Positions 22,722 through 38,832 of a stretch of 64,000 bases of DNA are shown piece after piece (position 1 is the stretch's first letter; each line of letters opens with the position of its first letter). The notes under the pieces are model-generated. The model saw only the letters and a program-made list of their open reading frames with translations. It was not told where the DNA came from and did not search any database. The DNA is taken from NCBI RefSeq assembly GCF_900046455.1, contig NZ_FCOT01000012.1:124001-188000 (forward strand), written 5' to 3'. Source of the stretch: Cellulomonas timonensis (GTDB lineage: Bacteria; Actinomycetota; Actinomycetes; Actinomycetales; Cellulomonadaceae). The position numbers and the translations under genes were made by a program.

Positions 22722-23753
22722 TCAGAGCGGCTGGATGCTCAGGTCGCGACGCGGTCCCCGGCGCGGGGTGCTGACATTGACGCCCATCCGCTTGAGGTCC
22801 GAGGCCAGCTCGCGCGGCAGCGAGAACATCAGGTCCTCGGTGGCCGTGCGGACCTCCTCGACCTCGCCGAAGCCGTGCTCGGCCAGCAGGTCCAGCACGT
22901 CGCGGACCAGGATCTCCGGCACCGACGCGCCGGAGGTGACGCCGACGGTCGTGGCGCCCTCGAGCCAGGCGGGGTCGATCTCCGACGCGCGGTCCACCCG
23001 GTAGGACGAGCGGGCCCCGGCGTCCAGGGCGACCTCGACCAGGCGCACCGAGTTCGACGAGTTCGCCGAGCCGACGGTGATGACCACGTCGCAGTCCGGC
23101 GCCAGCTTCTTCACCGCAACCTGACGGTTCTGCGTGGCGTAGCAGATGTCGTCCGACGGCGGGTCCTGCAGCGTCGGGAAGCGCTCACGCAGCCGCCGCA
23201 CCGTCTCCATGGTCTCGTCCACGGACAGCGTGGTCTGCGAGATCCACACCACCTTGTCGGGGTCGCGCACCACCACGTCGTCGACGTCGGCCGGGGAGTT
23301 GACCACCTGGATGTGCTCGGGGGCCTCTCCCTGCGTGCCCTCGACCTCCTCGTGGCCGGTGTGCCCGATCAGCAGGATGTCGTAGTCGTCGGAGGCGAAG
23401 CGCACGGCCTCCTTGTGCACCTTCGTCACGAGCGGGCAGGTCGCGTCGATGGTCTGCAGCGAGCGGGCCTCCGCCGCCGCGTGCACCGCCGGGGAGACGC
23501 CATGCGCGGAGAACACGACGCGGGCGCCCTCGGGCACCTCGTCCGTCTCGTCCACGAAGATCGCGCCGCGGGACGCGAGGGTCTCCACGACGTACTTGTT
23601 GTGCACGATCTCCTTGCGCACATAGATCGGGGCGCCGTAGTGGTCGAGGGCCTTCTCAACGGCGATCACCGCACGGTCGACTCCGGCGCAGTAGCCGCGC
23701 GGCGCCGCCAGCAGCACGCGCTTGCGGAGGGGCGAGGGCATCGAGGTGGTCAC
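22722..23753 (-). CDS. ispH: IspH, HMBPP reductase of the MEP isoprenoid pathway
   Basis: 343 residues from a GTG ([12 protein letters not shown]); an ATG four codons later is also possible. The three iron-sulfur cysteines are at about C22 (RGYCAGV), C106 (DATCPLV) and C204 ([10 protein letters not shown]), with the substrate-binding histidines in [17 protein letters not shown] and [11 protein letters not shown]. It reduces HMBPP to IPP and DMAPP, the last MEP step. The frame stays open far upstream of 23753 through an artefact-like stretch and xseA antisense, which should not be taken as coding. The same block encodes a prenyl synthase at 45100. Confidence 0.96.
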
Positions 23754-23791
23754 GCCCGCCAGTCTAGGCAGGCCCCGCGAGCACCCGCCCG

Positions 23792-23911
23792 CATGTATAA
23801 AAAGAGACGGGTAAAAGAGACGGGGATGTGTAAAAGAGACGGGGGGGGGGGGGCGCGGGGGGGCCCCCCCCCCCCCGGCGGGGCGGCCCCCCCCCCCCCC
23901 CGCCCCGCCCG
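23792..23911. other. Probable library artefact: mosaic-end-like copies plus poly-G/poly-C
   Basis: In a GC-rich genome this stretch suddenly contains three A-rich copies of a motif ending in AAAAGAGACGG (23793-23810, 23811-23823, 23825-23842). The third matches the Tn5/Nextera mosaic end AGATGTGTATAAGAGACAG at 16 of 18 aligned positions. It is followed at once by 13 G, then mixed G runs, 13-14 C and 17 C. Poly-G after an adapter is the known behaviour of two-colour Illumina chemistry when the insert ends. The block lies in the ispH-xseA gap, so no coding sequence has to be real across it. Confidence 0.75.
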
Positions 23912-24032: not shown

Positions 24033-25316
24033 GTGAGCGCGGGCGAGGGCCAGGCCGGCGGCGGGCTGCCCGCGCGGGCATTGGACACCACGGCGGAGAA
24101 CCCGTGGCCGGTGCGGCTGCTGTCGTCGAAGATCGCCGACTACGTGGCGCGGATGGCCCCGGTGTGGGTCGAGGGCCAGGTGGTGCAGCTCAACCGGCGC
24201 CCCGGCTCGGGCATCGCGTTCCTCACGCTGCGTGACACGGACGCGGACATGTCCCTGCCGGTGTCGATGCCGGCGGGGGTGCTGGCCGCCGCGACGACGT
24301 CGGTGCAGGAGGGCGCGCATGTGGTGGTGCATGCCAAGCCGGTGTTCTGGACGAAGCGCGGCACGCTCCAGCTCAACGCGGACGCGGTGCGGGCGATCGG
24401 CGTGGGGGAACTGCTGGCCCGGATCGAGCACCTCAAGCGCGTGCTCGCCGCGGAGGGGCTGTTCGACGCGGACCGCAAGGTCGCGCTGCCGTTCTTGCCG
24501 CGTGTGGTCGGCCTGGTGTGCGGGCGCGAGTCGAAGGCCGAGCATGACGTGGTGGTCAACGCCCGTGCCCGGTGGCCGCAGGTCGAGTTCGTCATCCGCG
24601 AGGTCGCGGTGCAGGGCGTGGGCGCCGTCGCGCAGGTCAGCGCCGCCATCGCCGAGCTCGACGCGCGCCCCGACGTCGAGGTGATCGTGGTGGCCCGTGG
24701 CGGTGGCGCCGTGGAGGACCTGCTGCCGTTCAGCAACGAGACGCTGGTCCGCGCCGCGGCGGCCTGCCGCACCCCGCTGGTCAGCGCCATCGGCCATGAG
24801 ACCGACACGCCACTGCTCGACCTGGTGGCCGACTACCGCGCGTCCACGCCCACCGACGCCGCCAAGCGCATCGTGCCCGATGTGGGCGAGGAGCGGGCCC
24901 GGCTGACGCAGGCCCGGGGCCGGATGCGCGCGGCCCTGACGCACCGGGTGGTGCGGGAGCGCGCCGGGCTGGAGTCGTTGCGCTCACGCCCGGTGCTCGC
25001 GCAGCCCGGGACGCTCGTCGACATGCGCGAGCACGAGGTGCACCGCGCGCGGGACACCGCCCGGCGTTCGCTGGACCTGCTGCTGAGCCGCGCGGCGGGG
25101 CAGACCGAGCGGCTCGCCGCGCAGGTGCGGGCACTGTCTCCCGCGGCGACCCTCGAGCGCGGGTACGCGGTGGTGCAGCGCGGTGATGGCGCAGTGGTCC
25201 GCGACCCCGCGGAGGTCGCAGAAGGGGACGCGCTGCGCGTGCGGGTGGCCCTCGGCGAGTTGCGCGCGGCAGTGACGTCGACAGAGGCTCGCGGGACGTC
25301 GGCGGCGGCTGGTTGA
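24033..25316 (+). CDS. xseA: Exodeoxyribonuclease VII large subunit
   Basis: 427 residues from the GTG at 24033, which has AGGGGT 7 nt upstream; GTG at 24024 is also in frame. The open frame extends far upstream through an artefact-like region and should be ignored. The N-terminal OB domain ([20 protein letters not shown]) is followed by the catalytic core with [40 protein letters not shown] and [20 protein letters not shown], then a long coiled-coil arm and a C-terminal segment ([14 protein letters not shown]). With XseB it degrades single-stranded DNA in both directions. The xseB gene follows directly. Confidence 0.96.
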
Positions 25317-38730: not shown

Positions 38731-38832
38731 GGGGGGGGGCGGGGGGGGGGTGGGGGGCCCCCCCGGCGCGGGGGGGGGGGGGAGGGGGGGGGCGGGGGGG
38801 GGGTGGGGGGGGGGGGGGGGGGGGGGGGGCGG
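38731..38832. repeat. Nearly pure G tract at the junction of the two FtsX genes
   Basis: About 100 bases of G runs broken by single C, T or A and one C7. The two permease frames are different on the two sides, and neither a stop for the first nor a start for the second can be seen in it. This is much more extreme than the surrounding GC-rich coding sequence and resembles the poly-G at 23841-23860. I read it as a sequencing/assembly artefact that replaced the real junction. If it were real, it would fuse or truncate the two proteins. Confidence 0.75.

Follow-up and report, generated by a model that had tools for sequence, protein, structure and literature searches.

A repeat- and homopolymer-bearing intergenic stretch of the Cellulomonas timonensis assembly is almost certainly Nextera XT adapter residue with unreliable G/C runs

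The window analysed here is a stretch of 64,000 bases, corresponding to C12:124001-188000 of assembly G000 (4,057,828 bases in 13 contigs). Positions 23791-23895 of this window, between the genes named ispH and xseA, are almost certainly an assembly artefact, composed of Nextera XT adapter residue and unreliable G/C runs, and not bacterial DNA. The insert has no biological function. It is read as an artefact because the adapter of one index pair is scattered in the assembly, the six congeners searched are without the Nextera mosaic end (ME), and extra bases lie between flanks that are collinear with those of a relative, G006. The original prediction that the stretch is foreign Nextera adapter residue and that the gap is unreliable was supported by each of these lines of evidence, which are given below.

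Two clear ME-like copies and a third, loose one were located on the forward strand at the left end of the feature (23792-23911), where three copies had been claimed. The loose copy (copy 1, approximately 23793-23810) was recognized by direct reading; it resembled the ME only with small gaps and was absent among ungapped ME matches at up to 8 mismatches. Copy 2 (23805-23823) overlapped copy 1 and differed from the ME at 4 of 19 positions. The best copy (copy 3, 23825-23842) had 2 mismatches in 18 bases; direct comparison of its sequence GATGTGTAAAAGAGACGG with the ME GATGTGTATAAGAGACAG gave the predicted identity of 16/18. Taken as a 19-mer (23824-23842), this copy had 3 mismatches and was the sole 19-mer ME match at 3 or fewer mismatches in the 64,000-base window; dinucleotide shuffles gave such a match in 0 of 100 cases. 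The long G and C runs said to follow the copies were measured in a run scan of the window as G13, G7, C13 and C15, starting at 23841, 23857, 23864 and 23887, respectively, and together spanning 23841-23901. Directly upstream of 23825-23842, the sequence differed from the i5 adapter at 11 of 14 positions and from the i7 adapter at 9 of 15, and the site retained only ME-like sequence, with no readable i5/i7 adapter or index. As no exact copy is present at the ispH-xseA site, the identity of the motif there rests on the 16 of 18 matching positions and the genome-wide context.

The original prediction had proposed a comparison of the interval with close relatives, and this comparison bore it out. 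In BLAST against G006, window positions 23600-23790 and 23896 onward matched stretches that overlapped by 10 bases, showing that the flanks were collinear and that the window carried 105-115 extra bases. The interval 23791-23895 is the minimum extent of the insert; its edges are C-rich, leaving approximately 10 more bases of ambiguous extent. Between fixed anchors, the window had 275 bases and G006 had 193. Further to the right, G006 had approximately 30 bases that were not present in the window, indicating that the intergenic difference exceeds the insert. G005 was also without the insert, with 112 bases between its anchors, in an intergenic sequence too divergent to place the insert edges.

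ME-like 18-mers at 3 or fewer mismatches were found at 39 sites in the 4.06-Mb assembly (18 forward, 21 reverse), and the reversed-pattern control gave none. At 2 or fewer mismatches there were 30 sites, and none of the 6 congeners had any. No exact 18-base ME was found in the assembly, yet 6 one-mismatch copies were present, as if exact copies had perhaps been removed by trimming or submission screening. Among 200 genomes sampled from the family, 9 (this genome included) had an ME match at 1 or fewer mismatches; in the other 8, many of the ME places listed were at the very beginning of a contig. One genome of the same family, G056, had 145 ME matches at 1 or fewer mismatches, and the listed places were exact, several of them starting from contig base 2; this is a heavily adapter-contaminated assembly.

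The library fingerprint was read from the 75 bases before 38 ME sites in fetched loci, and the site in the window was read directly. An i5 or i7 adapter preceded many of the ME copies. Directly upstream of the 39 sites, i5-like sequence (4 or fewer mismatches in 14) was found at 25 and i7-like sequence (5 or fewer mismatches in 15) at 7, with neither at 7 sites, including the ispH-xseA site; 16 of 2000 shuffled upstream sequences scored as i5- or i7-like. The string of index GCGTAAGA plus i5 adapter occurred at 18 places in the assembly at 3 or fewer mismatches, 4 of them exact, and a few of the 3-mismatch cases may be chance; that of index TTCTGCCT plus i7 adapter occurred at 8 places at the same threshold, 3 of them exact. 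The reversed controls gave 0 for both. The i7 index TTCTGCCT is the reverse complement of AGGCAGAA, and in the Nextera XT v2 table (Table A2) GCGTAAGA is listed as S517 and AGGCAGAA as N703 (PMC7589761). The 18-mer of 23825-23842 recurred identically at C8:292227-292244 of the same assembly, with an exact index plus i5 adapter ahead of it and C-runs after it, and this is the best single link of the ispH-xseA site to the library.

Coverage by short reads probably broke down at a GC-rich position in the ispH-xseA gap, and this position would have been bridged by joining or by filling with low-quality read ends that carried the mosaic-end part of the Nextera XT adapter together with miscalled homopolymers of G and C; the repetition of the ME may reflect a repeated k-mer path. 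Four pairs of opposite-strand ME copies lay 300 or fewer bases apart (L044, L052, L053, L058) and all pointed outward, the orientation that joining two contig ends with adapter tails would give. Three other ME sites were chosen for comparison with the relatives. At L003, the flanks were collinear in G006 and G005 with extra bases between them, and the same 99 bases in G006, and the same 65 in G005, matched on either side of the adapter, a pattern that could arise if two contig ends with a common overlap were placed end to end and not merged. L004 was likewise collinear in both relatives with extra bases: against G006 it gave a single alignment, whose gaps left this assembly a net 28 bases longer, and against G005 two abutting matches. 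At L008, by contrast, the flanks did not adjoin each other in G006, which had multiple copies of the right flank, and in G005 they were approximately 700 bases apart versus 151 in this assembly. From these sites, some joins seem to be right in order and others may omit sequence. Duplicated flanks did not prove to be a general signature of such joins: flank strings of at least 14 bases were shared at 4 of 39 sites versus 30 of 765 control pairs, a weak signal beyond a 41-base case at L039.

Long G runs in the window were not limited to the ispH-xseA gap. A second, larger block, whose longest run is G25, occupies 38731-38830, in what looks like coding sequence. The flanks of this block match both relatives, and the distance between them was 168 bases in the window versus 43 in G006, and 172 versus 24 in G005; the coding-looking frame, judged by eye, differed on either side. 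This block is probably another bad fill.

The original prediction had attributed the feature to adapter read-through on two-colour chemistry, and this part was not supported. On that reading, the poly-G would be dark cycles. After the end of the template, the usual default call is A on four-colour instruments and G on two-colour ones. Poly-G does adjoin the adapter at the ispH-xseA site, and a G25 run starts at 38805, as a two-colour instrument could produce. However, among 10 weak matches to the P7 end, 6 were taken to be real overruns, picked by eye from the preceding adapter letters (L043, L052, L060, L063, L064, L071), and none of the 6 turned to poly-G. In the clearest of them, L043, the read strand continued past the P7 end and became A-rich, AAAAGAAACAAAAAAAAAAG; this one clean case, read against the usual calling habit, favours a four-colour instrument. 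At the ispH-xseA site, the G-run is also found on the side of the ME that faces the insert, whereas dark cycles would be expected past the adapter's outer end. A two-colour origin is therefore unlikely, and the G and C runs at the site more probably come from miscalled bases or from k-mer noise where reads were GC-rich. The substitution spectrum of the 39 ME copies (A>G 31, T>G 16, A>C 15, T>A 8, others 11) was considered as a discriminator between the two chemistries; its reading depends on the strand that was read, and it does not decide.

It may also be asked whether the ME is adapter but the runs are genuine, with a real GC homopolymer or hairpin behind the sequencing failure. A GC-rich trigger is plausible, as the intergenic sequence of G006 is C-rich at the insert position, and C-runs adjoin some other ME sites (L042, L046). 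Against this, the fetched ispH-xseA stretches of five relatives (G001-G004 and G011, a count that left out G005 and G006) had no homopolymer of G or C as long as 7 bases, and in G006 the flanks meet with no such runs between them. The mixed G13/C13/C15 blocks also look more like miscalls. Genuine runs are accordingly quite improbable, and the fuller version, in which the G/C-run part is a real strain-specific homopolymer or hairpin that broke sequencing and drew in adapter-bearing reads, is very improbable. A natural repeat family, in which the ME-like sequences would be the ends of a Tn5/IS50-type transposon or of a miniature form derived from one, would suit multiple copies on both strands and has a negligible probability: it was rejected on the copy sequence, since the engineered ME is a better match to each of the 39 copies than the outside or inside end of IS50 as commonly known, on the commercial index and adapter upstream of many copies, and on the 0 of 6 congeners with an ME at 2 or fewer mismatches. 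The Tn5 transposase domain PF02281 had no match in the genome, and 14 of 14 control genomes were also silent, which gives this negative little weight.

Adapter residue at 23791-23895 also bears on the annotation of both neighbouring genes. The gene at 22722-23753 on the reverse strand, which we take to be ispH from the original prediction and familiar motifs, likely starts at GTG 23753, a codon kept in G006 and G005; the alternative start, ATG 23741, is not ATG in either relative. The gene on the right, named xseA in the original prediction (24033-25316, forward strand), likely starts at GTG 24033, a position occupied by ATG in G006 and GTG in G005. Both likely starts lie outside the insert and outside 23792-23911 as a whole, so the claim that the feature would mislead start-codon choice for both genes stands in part: the insert does put automatic start choice at risk. 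It provides false in-frame xseA ATGs at 23793 and 23826, and a falsely long ispH frame stays open across it to GTG 23918, just past the insert; the xseA frame is likewise open through it. With both frames open and false starts present, a longest-ORF annotation would be wrong.

These results amount to a data-quality warning. The assembly contains 39 degenerate ME-like remnants, which exact-match screens would probably miss. Such remnants flag uncertain joins and can create false start codons, and at these places the assembly is unfit for intergenic, promoter or start-site work without resequencing.

The engineered mosaic end derives from the IS50 ends, and the copies described here share that descent with Tn5/IS50. 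They differ from the natural ends, as generally known, in that every one of the 39 is nearer to the engineered form and many adjoin library adapter. The closer likeness is to Nextera XT adapter contamination of draft genomes, with the same mosaic end, parts of the i5/i7 adapters and index inside the assembly. In public genomes, at least 120 stretches with the adapter-plus-ME pattern were found, and 80 of the 80 listed lay 500 or fewer bases from a contig end. In the present assembly, by contrast, 38 of 39 sites are at least 9 kb from a contig end (the remaining one is at base 80 of C1), and no ME copy is exact. The artefact is thus of an ordinary kind, and it is the internal position and the degenerate copies that are unusual in this assembly.
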